Shown: positions 7,608-14,205 of the stretch, piece by piece
Numbering within the stretch: the first letter of the stretch is position 1
Layout of the letters: the number at the start of each line of letters is the position of its first letter
Source of the DNA: Oscillospiraceae bacterium
GTDB taxonomy: Bacteria; Bacillota; Clostridia; Oscillospirales; Acutalibacteraceae
Assembly (NCBI GenBank): GCA_015066385.1
Contig: SVOJ01000003.1
Location: 124,001-188,000, forward strand
Length of the DNA: 64,000 bases
Reading direction: 5' to 3'
Made by a program: the position numbers and the translations under genes
Notes under the pieces: model-generated
The model's database searches: none
Told to the model about the DNA's origin: nothing
Seen by the model: only the letters and a program-made list of their open reading frames with translations

Positions 7608-8276
7608 TTATTCGGATTTCTTTAATATGTAATTGCCGTTTTTTAATTCTGTAACAAGGTCTTGCGGGGTGAGGATTTCATGTTCAAACCATACCCCGCC
7701 TCTTGCAAGATCTTCATATTCGTGCAAATCAGATCCCGAAGTTTTAATTTTTCCGTTGCGCGTTGCCCATGCATCGGCAATTTCATTGCGAGAATTGTGC
7801 CTTTTGTTGCCGTTATAGACCTCGTATCCGTCAAGGTAATCCGGTTTCATGATTGTCATGGAATTCCGCATCGGATGTGCCTGTACGATCAGTACACCAT
7901 TACGGTGGGCAATTTCACTGCATTCACGCAGGCTTGTTCTGTTAAGATACGGATTGTCATACAGGAATTGTTCCGTCACCCCAAGTAACAAATAGTCGTT
8001 ATCGTTTTCGGGAAATCGGATCTCTGCGCCGGGAAAAACATGGAAATCCTGTGTTTCATGCTCTTTAGCGTCTCTGTAGCCGGCAAGGAAAGTATCAATG
8101 TATTCTTTCCAATCCGTAATCGGTGCGCCTTTGATGCCGCCGGGGGTAAAATGATCAGTGATCACAACACCACTGTAATTGTTTTCTTTTAACAGTTTTA
8201 CAATTTCTGTTGCACAGATTTTTCCGCAGCTGCTGACTTCAGAAGTATGGCAATGCAGTTCATACAGATAACCCAT
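7608..8276 (-). CDS. PHP-domain metal-dependent phosphoesterase
   Basis: This 222-aa protein is a stand-alone PHP domain, a TIM-barrel-like fold that binds two or three metals and hydrolyses phosphoesters. Visible metal-binding motifs are ELHCHTSEVS at the N-terminus, VITDHF near residue 40, PGAEIRF near 85, QAHPMRN near 135 and a C-terminal GSDLHEYED. The length matches the small phosphatase-like members rather than polymerase-fused ones. AAAGGA precedes the ATG. It faces htrA across a shared terminator and has no obvious operon partner. The substrate cannot be assigned; nucleotides or histidinol phosphate are possibilities known for the superfamily. Confidence 0.85.
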   Translation of the reverse strand: MGYLYELHCHTSEVSSCGKICATEIVKLLKENNYSGVVITDHFTPGGIKGAPITDWKEYIDTFLAGYRDAKEHETQDFHVFPGAEIRFPENDNDYLLLGVTEQFLYDNPYLNRTSLRECSEIAHRNGVLIVQAHPMRNSMTIMKPDYLDGYEVYNGNKRHNSRNEIADAWATRNGKIKTSGSDLHEYEDLARGGVWFEHEILTPQDLVTELKNGNYILKKSE

Positions 8277-9205: not shown

Positions 9206-9250
9206 AAAACATTGCAGGATGGTTTGTAATTGCCACACCTGCAATGTTTT
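9206..9250 (-). terminator. Terminator of the 13.1-9.2 kb minus-strand operon
   Basis: Thirteen-base arms AAAACATTGCAGG (9206-9218) and CCTGCAATGTTTT (9238-9250). The minus strand continues into TTTTCTTTTATA. The distal arm touches the last base of the stop codon. Confidence 0.8.
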
Positions 9251-11370
9251 TATATTGCTTTGTTGCCGACAGTTTCTCTTTTTGCGTTCTTGTAATCCAG
9301 AAGCAATTTATTCTCACCGCTGTCAATAAGTAAAGACGGTGATTTCCTTTTTGCTTTGCAAAATTTGCTGTCGTATCTGTCAAACACTTTGTCGGAAGGG
9401 GAGTTGTTTACGATAAATTCACCGTTATAGGATACCGATATATCGCCTGAAAGAGTGTTATAGTAAACTTTATTGCCTGTAAACTCTGCTGTATTATTAC
9501 TGATTCTTTCCTTGAACTGTTCAAATGTTTCTTTATCAGCATCGGAAAGTTCTGTTATATAAGCGTGATATGTACCGCCGTATCTGCACAAATCAAATTC
9601 ACTTTTGAGCGTACAACTGTCAGGGAAAATTCTGCTTTTGTGCACACCTTTTGCAGATGCAGTATCAAAAGGCTTGTATTGCAATCTGCCGTTTGCTGTC
9701 AGTGAAACAAATACACCGTTTTTTCTTGCAAAAACTCTGTCTTCCAGAAGTTCAAATTCGTCATAGAAATCTTTTGGCATGTAGGCATGCGTCATATCGG
9801 CAATTGCTGTTTCGCCAAGCCGCTTTTTATCAGGAAGTTTATAAATGGTTATGTTAACATTTTTGTGTTGTACACTCATAGGGCGTCTACCGTTGCCGAT
9901 CCAATAACCGGGGGACGAACCGTATCTGCCGTTACCGTTACCGGCCGGGTGCGTGGTAAACAGTGCAAGTGTTTCTCCGATGTTTGCAGTCCATTCATGG
10001 TCCTGTGCTCCGCACATATCCACATCCTTACAAATATCAGTAGAAAGACTGTAACGTGCTGTGCGGTATGTATAAACATTGCCTCTGCCCGTTGCAATAC
10101 CGTGTGGCACGATGTTGTGTTTTTCGGCAAACTTTTTCCAGTTAATTGCCCTGAAGACGGTCAGATTCAGGAATTTGAAATATCCGAGAAAAGAGTTTCT
10201 GTACATTTTGTTTTCTTTTAGATATTTCAGAGTGTTGTCGATAACCTGATGGTTTGTAAAGGTTTCAGCCCCGAGTTGCGCCATAATCTGATGCGGTTCA
10301 CAGCCGACAAATCCTTCTTCCTGCATATCCATAGTGGATAGACCGCAACCCATTTTGGAAACGAATGTTTCTTTTGACAGTGCCACATCCTTAATTGCAT
10401 CCGGTAAAACATAAAGACCTTTCTTAACAATATCCGTAAAGCACAAAACAATGTGGTTTGGCGTTTTGGCAAGACTTGCAGCGATTTCATTCTTTTCCCT
10501 TGCGGAAAGATAAGGATCTTTCAACACTTCCGCGACACCATCAGCACCCCACAGAATATTCATAGCACTCTGTATGCTGTTGCCGTAAAAATTACCAGCC
10601 TTGTTGTTTCCGTACATTCTTGAACTGACAGCAACAAAACGGTTGTTTACACTGTTGAGGGCAACATCAAACCACAAAATATCCATGATTATTTTCATTT
10701 GTTCCACGGACTTTTCATCTTTTGCGTATGCAATGAAATTTGCCATCGGGGCAATATCTTCAGCAAGATAATTGTTGCTGAGGTATTCAGCAAATCCAAA
10801 GTTAAAACGTTGCTCCATCCATGCAGCAATACGGACTTTTGCCTTTGCCATATGTTCTTTTCCTGTCATTTTGTTGTTGCTGAAAACCGCATCCGGCCAT
10901 TCCTGTCCTGCAAGGTACTCACTGACTGCAAACAGAATCTGGTGATTTTCCGACCAATAGCACATGCTGTCGTCACCGGGTTCATCCATGAAGTATTTGA
11001 AGTTTAGAAACGTGTTTTTGATAAGCTCCTTGCATTTTTCATTCAATACATTGCCACAGTCTTTGTAGATTTTAAACAGCATCTGTGCTCTGAAATCAGC
11101 ACAATCAAATCGCCTGCCCATGTAGCGGCTCTGGCGCTCAAGCAGTTCGTATATTTCTTCGTCTGTAAAAATATTTTTCGTTTCTTCACCGGCAAGGAAA
11201 AGGTATAAGTCTTCAAAACTTTTACCGTTCACGGAAGTTGAATACAAGTCTTTTTCTTGATCTTCGGGGAGCTCCTGTGCGGGTGTCTGTGCGAAAAGAT
11301 AAGCAATTTCAATTACAGTCAGAAATACAACTGCACCAAGAATGCCGAGAATAATATACAGAATCGTCAT
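9250..11370 (-). CDS. Large membrane-anchored protein of unknown function, possible alpha/alpha-toroid carbohydrate-active enzyme
   Basis: This 706-aa protein starts with one hydrophobic helix (about 2-25) followed by a Pro/Gln/Glu linker, so the bulk probably lies outside the cell. Residues about 40-400 look all-helical and rich in aromatic residues (CYWSENHQILFAVSEYLAG is the most distinctive motif). Residues about 450-690 look beta-rich. This order, helical toroid then beta-sheet region, resembles polysaccharide lyases or heparinase-like enzymes, but I see no motif that assigns a family. The start has GGAGGGAG upstream. It is last in a tight operon with a sugar isomerase and a hydroxyacid dehydrogenase, which fits a role in glycan breakdown. 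The function remains unknown. Confidence 0.7.
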   Translation of the reverse strand: MTILYIILGILGAVVFLTVIEIAYLFAQTPAQELPEDQEKDLYSTSVNGKSFEDLYLFLAGEETKNIFTDEEIYELLERQSRYMGRRFDCADFRAQMLFKIYKDCGNVLNEKCKELIKNTFLNFKYFMDEPGDDSMCYWSENHQILFAVSEYLAGQEWPDAVFSNNKMTGKEHMAKAKVRIAAWMEQRFNFGFAEYLSNNYLAEDIAPMANFIAYAKDEKSVEQMKIIMDILWFDVALNSVNNRFVAVSSRMYGNNKAGNFYGNSIQSAMNILWGADGVAEVLKDPYLSAREKNEIAASLAKTPNHIVLCFTDIVKKGLYVLPDAIKDVALSKETFVSKMGCGLSTMDMQEEGFVGCEPHQIMAQLGAETFTNHQVIDNTLKYLKENKMYRNSFLGYFKFLNLTVFRAINWKKFAEKHNIVPHGIATGRGNVYTYRTARYSLSTDICKDVDMCGAQDHEWTANIGETLALFTTHPAGNGNGRYGSSPGYWIGNGRRPMSVQHKNVNITIYKLPDKKRLGETAIADMTHAYMPKDFYDEFELLEDRVFARKNGVFVSLTANGRLQYKPFDTASAKGVHKSRIFPDSCTLKSEFDLCRYGGTYHAYITELSDADKETFEQFKERISNNTAEFTGNKVYYNTLSGDISVSYNGEFIVNNSPSDKVFDRYDSKFCKAKRKSPSLLIDSGENKLLLDYKNAKRETVGNKAI

Positions 11371-11394
11371 TATACTCCCTCCGCGTTTTCTTGT

Positions 11395-12390
11395 TTATGC
11401 CATCCTTTCGAGCATGTCAAGTGTAACTTCATATTTTGTTTCTTCGCCTTTATTAAAGCGTTCCATTTCCTCCATCATATAATAAGCCATTCTTTGCGGT
11501 TCATTACCGGTACTGCCTGCGATGTGCGGGGTCAGTACGGCATTCGGGCACCAGAACAGGGGATTGATGTACGGAAAGAACTCCTTTTTAAGTACATCCG
11601 CAACAAAGGTTCTTGACGGATGGAGAAGAAGAGATAAAGCAAGGGAATACTCTGCAACCTGTGCACCTCTGCCCGTGTTGATGAAGGTTGCGTGTTTTTT
11701 CATTTTTTTAAAGAGTTTATAGTTGAATACATTTTCAAGTTCCGGCTTATTGGCAAGGTGATTGCTGATGACATCGCAGGTGCTGAAAAGTTCTTCAAGG
11801 CTTACAAGAGTAACACCAAACTGTTTTGCTTTTTCTTTACTGACAAACGGATCGTAAGCAAAAACCTCAACATCAAGACCCTTCAATCTTTCGGCGACCA
11901 TCTGGCCGATTGCACCGAGTCCGACAAGTCCTACCTTGCATCCGAAGTTGCCCGGTGATGAATTTGCAAAAACAAAGGAACGAGGCAACAGGGAACGGTA
12001 ATATTTTGCCGCCTGAAAATAGCCCTTTGATGCCAGTGATATTTGTGCAAAAGTGTACTCTGCTACGGGTACAGCATTGGCGGCAAATGCACTGAAAACC
12101 TTGATTCCGCTTTCAAGGAAAGGTCTTGCAAAATATTGTACCGTGCCTGCCGAATAAAAAACAGCCTTGAGTTTCGGCATATATTCGCGTATTTCGTCTT
12201 TTGTGAATTTCGGCATTCCCCATGTCGCAAATGCTATTTCACAATCGGAAAGAAAATCCGCATTCTCCTTTAAGTTTTTTTTGTTGATTTTTTTGGACAA
12301 TTCACCGTATTCACCGAGTTTTTGCAATACTGTATCCGTGTAAACTTTTGAAAACTGTATTTGATTGGTACCAAACAGTGCGATTTTCAT
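11395..12390 (-). CDS. D-isomer-specific 2-hydroxyacid dehydrogenase family protein
   Basis: This 331-aa NAD(P)-dependent oxidoreductase would reduce a 2-keto acid or oxidise a D-2-hydroxy acid in the cytoplasm. The Rossmann motif GLVGLGAIGQMVAERL lies near residue 160. The catalytic Arg region is replaced by SNHLANKPELENVF near 220. NTGRGAQVAE follows near 248 and LTPHIAGSTGNE near 295 supplies the catalytic His. The usual Arg in the VxxHxPLT..T motif is not obvious, so it may be a divergent subfamily. It overlaps the isomerase gene by 4 bases and is followed 24 bases later by the anchored 706-aa gene, indicating co-transcription. The substrate is unknown; a sugar-derived acid is a reasonable inference. 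Confidence 0.85.
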   Translation of the reverse strand: MKIALFGTNQIQFSKVYTDTVLQKLGEYGELSKKINKKNLKENADFLSDCEIAFATWGMPKFTKDEIREYMPKLKAVFYSAGTVQYFARPFLESGIKVFSAFAANAVPVAEYTFAQISLASKGYFQAAKYYRSLLPRSFVFANSSPGNFGCKVGLVGLGAIGQMVAERLKGLDVEVFAYDPFVSKEKAKQFGVTLVSLEELFSTCDVISNHLANKPELENVFNYKLFKKMKKHATFINTGRGAQVAEYSLALSLLLHPSRTFVADVLKKEFFPYINPLFWCPNAVLTPHIAGSTGNEPQRMAYYMMEEMERFNKGEETKYEVTLDMLERMA

Positions 12391-13148
12391 TTGCCTTTCC
12401 CCGCCTTTTCTTTTATCTTCTGTATATCTTTTATCATATTTGATTTAAAACCCAGATAGCTGAATAAATATGTGTATTCAATAAGAAGATTGCCGTCAAA
12501 ACCTACGGATAAAATTTTATCTAAAAGTGCATCAATATAATCGGGCTTGTATTTCGGAAATTGTTCCCGCATCTGTTCAGAGAAAGAAATATGCACACTT
12601 TCCATATATGGAGCGGTGCGCTCAATTCTGTCAAGGTCATATTCTTTTCGACGATAACGGGACTGAAAATATGTTTTGAAATTATCACGGTCAATATCTT
12701 TGTAAATTTTCAAAAAGGAATCCGTATTGTTGTTATAGGTATTGTCGTGACATTCGGGGCAGACGGTGAGGTTGTATTTTGCCGCAACATCGCAGATGTT
12801 TTTCGCATCTTCAACAAGGGAATTATATATATCGATGTCAGTCAGCTCGCTGTCCTTTTTTCCCAGCCATACACGTACGGAGGATGCACCCATTGTTTTT
12901 GCAATTTCGCAGATTGTCTGCCATTCTTCCGTCTTTTTGTTACCCACGCAATAATAACTGCCGTAAGAACAAATCTTGATACCGGCTTCATCACAAAGTT
13001 TTTTTGCCAGTTTCGCCGAAGCGATATCTGTTACATGGATATCGCCGCCCCATTCAATGCAATCAACCTTCGCCTGTGATGCAATATCAACGATTTTATC
13101 AAGTTTTCTTATCTGCCTGAAAGATGTGGATGTAAAACCGATCTGCAT
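12387..13148 (-). CDS. Sugar phosphate isomerase/epimerase-like TIM barrel protein
   Basis: This 253-aa protein belongs to the xylose-isomerase-like AP-endonuclease-2 fold group. It opens with a beta strand and MQIGFTSTSFRQI. It shows DCIEWGGDIHV near residue 30, a metal-ligand-like PECHDNTYNN near 130, and a C-terminal LLIEYTYLF. Members isomerise or epimerise sugars or inositols with a divalent metal. It is the first gene of the three-gene operon, with its own promoter at 13185-13213, and its stop overlaps the dehydrogenase start (ATGA-type). The substrate cannot be read from the sequence; pairing with a dehydrogenase points to oxidised sugar metabolism. Confidence 0.85.
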   Translation of the reverse strand: MQIGFTSTSFRQIRKLDKIVDIASQAKVDCIEWGGDIHVTDIASAKLAKKLCDEAGIKICSYGSYYCVGNKKTEEWQTICEIAKTMGASSVRVWLGKKDSELTDIDIYNSLVEDAKNICDVAAKYNLTVCPECHDNTYNNNTDSFLKIYKDIDRDNFKTYFQSRYRRKEYDLDRIERTAPYMESVHISFSEQMREQFPKYKPDYIDALLDKILSVGFDGNLLIEYTYLFSYLGFKSNMIKDIQKIKEKAGKGK

Positions 13149-13332: not shown

Positions 13333-14205
13333 ATGGCAAAATATCTTATTGTAAATGCTGATGACTGCGGCATGTGCGAGGCTGCCAATAAAGCAGTTTT
13401 TGAATTGCTTGAAGGTGGATTTTTAAAATCAACAACCATTATGATGCCTTGTGCTTTTGCCGAAGATGCAGTGCGTTATTCTATTGCGCATCCTGAATTT
13501 GCAATGGGCATTCATTTGACGGCAACAGCCGAATGGAAAGATTGGCGCTGGAAACCGTTGACGGACGGCAAAAGCCTTGTTGATAAGGACGGGTATATGT
13601 GGCACAACTGCGTGCAGGTCACCAAAAATGCAAAATTGGACGAACTTGAAAAAGAAGTCAGAGCACAGATTGATAAGGCTCTTAAAATGGGAATGAAACC
13701 TTCTCATATCGACAATCACATGGGATCTCTGTATGGTCACATCGGTCTCCGCTTTGAATTGCTGAAAATGACTCTTAAAGTCTGCGGTGAATACGGCTAT
13801 GCATATCGTTTGTACACAAAAGCAGATAAGCGTGTTCAACCTGCCGATATACCGTATTTTCTGCACTATATTTCTGCACTGATCGGCAAGGTATGGGGTA
13901 AAAAATTCAATGTCCTTATGCCCGATTATCTTTTATTCCCGAACTGGACCAAAGAAATGCGGCAGGGTACTTATGAAGATTATAAAAAACATATTCTGAA
14001 TATCTGGACAAATATTCCCGACGGCGTAACCGAAACGTTTGTACATCCCGCCTTGGAATGCGACGAACTGAAAAGCATCACCGGTTCGTGGCAGGATCGT
14101 GTATGGGAATATCAGTTGATGAAGGATCCCGAAACTCATAAATATTTAAAAGAACATGGAGTTGAAATGATCAATTACCGCGATTTGATTGCAATGCAAA
14201 AATAA
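13333..14205 (+). CDS. YdjC/ChbG-family carbohydrate deacetylase
   Basis: This 290-aa enzyme should remove an N-acetyl group from a small oligosaccharide, as ChbG does with chitobiose. The family's metal and catalytic residues are visible: NADDCGMCEAAN with the paired Asp near residue 10, MGIHLTAT near 57, and PSHIDNHMGS near 118. A C-terminal TFVHPALECDEL fits the last ligand region. AGGAAAGCGG precedes the ATG. It stands alone, divergent from the isomerase-dehydrogenase operon, and the shared intergenic region hints at common control. The exact acetylated substrate is unknown. The length is slightly above the E. coli enzyme. Confidence 0.88.
   Translation: MAKYLIVNADDCGMCEAANKAVFELLEGGFLKSTTIMMPCAFAEDAVRYSIAHPEFAMGIHLTATAEWKDWRWKPLTDGKSLVDKDGYMWHNCVQVTKNAKLDELEKEVRAQIDKALKMGMKPSHIDNHMGSLYGHIGLRFELLKMTLKVCGEYGYAYRLYTKADKRVQPADIPYFLHYISALIGKVWGKKFNVLMPDYLLFPNWTKEMRQGTYEDYKKHILNIWTNIPDGVTETFVHPALECDELKSITGSWQDRVWEYQLMKDPETHKYLKEHGVEMINYRDLIAMQK

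Follow-up and report, generated by a model that had tools for sequence, protein, structure and literature searches.

An operon conserved in herbivore-gut Clostridia encodes a candidate member of an unassigned uronate lyase family

Results

We analysed a 64,000-nucleotide window from the genome of an Oscillospiraceae bacterium (assembly GCA_015066385.1, 3.17 Mb in 52 contigs; contig SVOJ01000003.1, positions 124,001 to 188,000), in which a three-gene operon on the reverse strand ends with the gene of a membrane-anchored 706-aa protein that probably represents a new family of uronic-acid glycan lyases. Coordinates below refer to the window and, unless stated otherwise, to its reverse strand. The first gene (12387..13148) encodes a 253-aa sugar isomerase/epimerase-like TIM barrel, the second (11395..12390) a 331-aa nicotinamide adenine dinucleotide (NAD)-dependent D-2-hydroxyacid dehydrogenase, and the third (9250..11370) the 706-aa protein, assigned to a putative lyase family from an AF2 model and its fold matches in the PDB. 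The isomerase and dehydrogenase genes overlap by 4 bp, and the 24-bp gap between the dehydrogenase gene and the third gene contains a GGAGGG ribosome-binding site, read from the sequence as GGAGGGAG (11375..11382). These are real genes in a tight operon, and the reading-frame positions given in a preliminary description of this DNA were all correct. A scan for promoters and terminators returned only chance-level results.

The 706-aa protein has no Pfam match over cut-off, no NCBIfam match and no significant PDB sequence match, whether searched as a single sequence or as a profile, in agreement with the earlier view that no family could be assigned to it. Pfam and PDB profile searches likewise gave no significant match to the named polysaccharide lyase (PL) families, Hepar_II_III included, and distant members of the family have no Pfam match either. 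Two faint domain signals, PF22185 (E 0.002 over 36 residues, under cut-off) and DUF5783, do not recur in the family and were taken as chance. No published description of the family was found in the literature searched.

Relatives of the protein occur in 22 of 300 genomes of its own taxonomic family and in 7 of 399 genomes of the phylum. The close relatives of the window are metagenome-assembled genomes of Clostridia from the guts of goat, sheep, cattle, deer, horse and buffalo. A tblastn search of plasmids returned 199 records, mostly from Rhizobium (123) and Pseudosulfitobacter (40), with other hosts including Sinorhizobium, Neorhizobium, Shinella and the haloarchaeon Haladaptatus; the annotated plasmid copies that we saw are all labelled hypothetical protein. 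In one genome (L046 6941-9096 and L086 9285-11442) the family gene is split into two overlapping frames of 507 and 247 aa, a copy that is frameshifted or decaying unless the assembly is in error. In another family of the phylum (L071 7165-11316), two tandem members of 721 and 662 aa sit in a cluster of Gfo/Idh/MocA, flavin mononucleotide (FMN) and flavin adenine dinucleotide (FAD) genes.

To describe the architecture we used an AF2 model built from 18 sequences (predicted template-modelling score, pTM, 0.81; mean predicted local confidence, pLDDT, 72). Together with hydropathy, it bears out the membrane anchor, helical N-terminal half and beta-rich C-terminal half that had been proposed earlier. 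A hydrophobic helix spans residues 2-27 (11290..11367), with a Kyte-Doolittle value of 2.71 over 19 residues. DSSP assignment of the model places a helical (alpha/alpha)-type domain at about residues 45-417 (10120..11238), with low confidence for parts past residue ~245, and a beta-rich C-terminal domain that begins at about residue 431 and runs to about 701 (9268..10080). Lysine and arginine are absent before the hydrophobic stretch and in the 15 residues after it; in many close members such residues follow the helix, and in several distant ones they precede it. The anchor is clear, and these charges leave its membrane orientation uncertain. No signal peptide was seen by eye in the alphaproteobacterial members examined; these probably work as oligosaccharide lyases in the cytoplasm, supplied by ATP-binding cassette (ABC) or tripartite ATP-independent periplasmic (TRAP) transporters.

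In a Foldseek search of the PDB with the full-length model, the first 20 matches are all lyases that combine a toroid with a beta-sheet, or the related dermatan sulfate epimerase, and comprise PL17, PL15, dermatan sulfate epimerase 1, exolytic heparinase, PL35 GAGases and PL8. PL17 and PL15 lead the list, with a best E of 1e-4 and a probability of 1.00; 11 matches have E<=1e-3, and unrelated folds start at E 0.08. A search of a viral fold library gave two matches under E 1e-3, both to proteins without a name or characterisation.

In an alignment that reaches from Clostridia and other Firmicutes to Alphaproteobacteria and Haladaptatus, D89, C90, D92, F93, E141, N142, H143, G155, W184, E195, S198, Y201, R251, P497 and H528 are invariant. 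The motif CYWSENHQILFAVSEYLAG, quoted in the preliminary description, is present and holds the most conserved of them. N142-H143 (10942..10947, within W-S-E-N-H), also invariant across 21 diverse members, is a candidate carboxylate neutraliser in the same Asn-His order as in PL17. The E-x-x-S-x-x-Y motif from E195 to Y201 (10768..10788) supplies a candidate catalytic Tyr that lies 58 residues past H143 and 59 past N142, as counted along the sequence. R251 (10618..10620), invariant in two alignments, is a possible further active-site residue. H528 (9787..9789, in T-H-x-Y-x-P), invariant in all aligned members, is probably the beta-domain His.

In lyases of this fold, 53-57 residues separate the neutralising Asn/His from the catalytic Tyr, as seen in PL12, PL15, PL17, PL21 and PL35 (PMC4765187, PMC11921355, PMC12088678, PMC11848413). 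The PL17 enzyme Smlt2602 uses N207/H208/Y264 (PMC4765187); VBAly15A has H226/Y280, Atu3025 H311/Y365 and BIexoHep H337/Y390 (PMC11921355); GAGase II has N192/Y246 and heparinase III N240/Y294 (PMC12088678); and PL21 has H202/Y257 (PMC11848413). The PL17 oligoalginate lyases Alg17c and Smlt2602, the best fold matches, rank among the known systems closest to the 706-aa protein, with a Tyr 56-57 residues beyond the Asn-His pair as compared with 58-59; unlike them, the 706-aa protein has a membrane anchor and a longer helical region and lacks detectable sequence homology or a Pfam Hepar_II_III domain. The PL15 and PL35 enzymes (Atu3025, BIexoHep, VBAly15A, GAGase II) are the next-best fold matches with a spacing of 53-54, but their family profiles give no match. 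In the 706-aa protein the candidate beta-domain His also comes much later in the chain, at a distance from Y201 that exceeds that in known lyase families.

Gene neighbourhoods were compared first in a close set of 20 related loci, 58-88% identical to the 706-aa protein. The isomerase gene lies upstream of the family gene in 17 of the 20 and the dehydrogenase gene in 16, with one further locus ending at a contig edge; the order isomerase, dehydrogenase, 706-aa protein is conserved in herbivore-gut Clostridia. An MFS_2 sugar transporter of the glycoside-pentoside-hexuronide (GPH) type directly precedes the family gene in five loci, replacing the dehydrogenase in two of them. MFS_2, GH63-like, GH130 and metallophosphatase genes are other neighbours, each in a few loci. 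Several gut Clostridia also carry next to the operon a gene for an 834-852-aa protein (L034 9143-11644, L032 588-3143), which may be another uncharacterised carbohydrate enzyme; the one that was scanned has no Pfam match.

Distant members lie in a different context. Enzymes of glycoside hydrolase (GH) families 88 and 105 and the enzymes KduI and KduD process unsaturated uronates produced by lyases. Clostridial members at 35-40% identity show the order MFS_2, AP_endonuc_2, GH88/GH105 and family gene, and in two of these loci kduI, kduD and an FAA hydrolase gene are divergent. Locus L065 has a KduI at 432 bits (NCBIfam cut-off 250), a KduD at 403 (cut-off 339), a GPH-like transporter and a GH88 protein that is YteR/GH105-like. 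Among 15 GH88-bearing Firmicutes genomes with the family, a GH88/GH105 gene directly adjoins the family gene in 6, from five genera, where ~0.05 would be expected; the genomes are not fully independent, which makes the nominal P (6e-12) too low. On plasmids of Phyllobacterium and Shinella the order is GH88, kduI, family gene, ABC transporter and kduD; Pseudosulfitobacter and Salipiger combine the family gene with kduI, kduD, GH88 and TRAP genes, Thioclava with GH88, ABC, kduD and kduI, and five Rhizobium records show family gene, GH88, GH28 and ABC. No annotated lyase was seen in the displayed stretch of five alphaproteobacterial kduI/kduD operons. Haladaptatus, with isomerase and Gfo/Idh/MocA neighbours, is the sole annotated exception. 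The adjacency of distant members to genes that handle lyase products thus amounts to strong guilt by association. Where these operons have KduI and KduD, the window's operon has an AP_endonuc_2 isomerase and a 2-hydroxyacid dehydrogenase.

The isomerase matches PF01261 (E=3.5e-14), and its sole PDB match is AsbF (E=2.6e-4). The dehydrogenase matches PF02826 (E=1.8e-39) and, by fold and motifs, is an ordinary D-2-hydroxyacid dehydrogenase with the GxGxxG NAD site and the Arg, Glu and His catalytic residues. The preliminary description had it lacking the usual substrate-Arg context, which is wrong: an alignment with phosphoglycerate dehydrogenase shows the Rossmann GLGAIG, the Arg of FINTGRGA, the Glu and the His of TPHIAGST all retained and in register, so that an Arg defect is ruled out. 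Although it shares this NAD fold and catalytic context, it falls far under every NCBIfam equivalog cut-off.

Dehydrogenase relatives (E<=1e-60) occur in 51 of 300 genomes of the same taxonomic family, many without the 706-aa protein. Elsewhere the isomerase-dehydrogenase pair accompanies an FMN oxidoreductase, a short-chain dehydrogenase/reductase (SDR) and an FAD protein, or GH3, GH95 and NAGLU-like enzymes. In one such locus (L156, G267:C36, 6269-10136), a PL35-family gene (8khw, E=2.3e-73) lies directly upstream of the dehydrogenase and isomerase genes, after which come genes for an FMN oxidoreductase, an SDR and an FAD protein; by sequence, its product is an analogous lyase in the operon slot of the 706-aa protein. 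The cassette of FMN oxidoreductase (PF00724), SDR and FAD_binding_2 recurs in L147, L149, L152, L153, L155, L157, L159, L046 and L071, near the isomerase-dehydrogenase pair or near a family gene.

Two other genes flank the operon in the window. The preliminary description had included a divergent YdjC gene (13333-14205, forward strand) in the system. The gene is indeed a YdjC (PF04794, E=8.6e-57), but it adjoins the operon in only 1 of the 20 loci (L031, the 88%-identical nearest relative), and we reject it as an operon partner. Downstream on the operon's strand, a gene for a PHP-family metal-dependent phosphoesterase (7608-8276) adjoins the operon in the nearest relatives only.

Discussion

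The best explanation of these data, to which we give a probability of about two in three, places the 706-aa protein in an unassigned family of lyases that act on uronic-acid polysaccharides or oligosaccharides and are built, like the class of PL12, PL15, PL17, PL21, PL33, PL35 and PL39, from an (alpha/alpha)-toroid and an antiparallel beta-sheet; their product would feed an isomerase/dehydrogenase route to 2-keto-3-deoxygluconate (KDG). We favour a lyase because of the fold matches, the spacing of N142-H143 and Y201, and the GH88, GH105, kduI and kduD neighbours, and we take the family to be, in all probability, a new one among the toroid lyases. The same evidence backs the polysaccharide-lyase guess of the preliminary description. 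As for the pathway proposed there, for an acetylated, oxidised or uronic sugar, the neighbourhoods support its uronic part, but nothing was found for its acetylated part.

Several observations weigh against this reading. Lyase-class folds top the list in the structure prediction and Foldseek search that the preliminary description had proposed, yet they do so with a template-modelling (TM) score of ~0.33 and a root-mean-square deviation of 17. A model of the toroid by itself (residues 45-425, pTM 0.72) matched no lyase, with a best E of 0.19; given this and the low TM, the fold claim rests on the full-length match together with the conserved residues. Profile-profile comparison (hhalign) with Hepar_II_III families, represented by 28 proteins found via Hepar_II_III_C and run whole and by cluster, was insignificant and out of register with the motifs, and gave no sequence homology to these lyases. 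The isomerase-dehydrogenase pair is not specific to the 706-aa protein. Finally, neither GH88 nor a KduD over cut-off was found in the window's genome, and its sole KduI-family match is IolB, in an inositol cluster beside IolC, leaving the window's operon without KduI or KduD orthologues. The myo-inositol catabolism genes (IolC-like and IolB, on L080/L081, G000:C11) lie ~10 kb before the start of the window.

The lower part of the pathway is present in this genome. An Eda aldolase is over cut-off and adjoins genes read by eye as UxuA-like, SDR and KdgK-like, which provides a route through KDG and 2-keto-3-deoxy-6-phosphogluconate (KDPG). Because this lower pathway is present while KduD and a true KduI were not found, we propose the isomerase and dehydrogenase in their places. 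PL15 and PL17 lyases release monomers exolytically, and a similar exolytic release by the 706-aa protein would remove the need for GH88.

These considerations can be assembled into a putative mechanism. The carboxylate of the uronate would be neutralised by N142 and H143. Removal of the proton from C5 and protonation of the leaving oxygen would fall to Y201 together with the beta-domain H528, yielding a 4,5-unsaturated uronate end. The GPH-type symporter, where relatives have it in the operon, could move the uronides. The opened unsaturated uronate would be converted to KDG inside the cell by the TIM-barrel isomerase and the NAD-dependent dehydrogenase, acting in place of KduI and KduD; KDG kinase and KDPG aldolase would complete the route.

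We weighed three other explanations. The 706-aa protein might be a glycoside hydrolase, or another (alpha/alpha)-barrel carbohydrate enzyme, that acts beside a lyase and adjoins GH88 merely through a shared substrate. This would fit the GH28, GH130 and GH63-like neighbours and the weak resemblance in fold to GH146 and a second beta-L-arabinofuranosidase (E 0.1), but the best lyase matches are ~1000-fold better in E-value, the Asn-His...Tyr spacing suits lyases, and no annotated lyase accompanies the family in the displayed stretch of the five alphaproteobacterial kduI/kduD operons; we regard this as unlikely. It is more doubtful still that the family consists of uronyl C5-epimerases of the same fold, feeding other lyases without cutting. 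Human dermatan sulfate epimerase 1 ranks high in the fold search (6hzn, E 1.6e-4) and shares both fold and Tyr with the lyases (PMC11848413); however, GH88-kduI-kduD operons without an annotated lyase nearby hold genes that need an unsaturated product. That the operon is a general sugar-acid pathway, with a 706-aa protein that is non-catalytic or unrelated in role, appears equally improbable: the isomerase-dehydrogenase pair often occurs without this protein and with varied partner enzymes, but polar residues are invariant over very distant members and the adjacency to GH88, KduI and KduD recurs.

Returning to the lyase reading, the fuller proposal, that one new lyase family spans Clostridia, Alphaproteobacteria and Haloarchaea and that the isomerase and dehydrogenase of gut Clostridia replace KduI and KduD non-orthologously, is tentative, and we hold it to be less probable than not. 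The substrate might be a plant uronic glycan such as rhamnogalacturonan, as the GH105 and GH28 neighbours and the plant-associated or herbivore-gut hosts faintly hint.

If the lyase reading is true, it would give a widespread 'hypothetical' protein, present in many gut Clostridia and on over 100 Rhizobium plasmid records, a function, a candidate active site and a reaction open to direct testing. The breakdown of uronic-acid glycans would then be under-annotated in the guts of ruminants and horses and among root-nodule bacteria, and unsaturated uronates may prove to have an alternative path to KDG.

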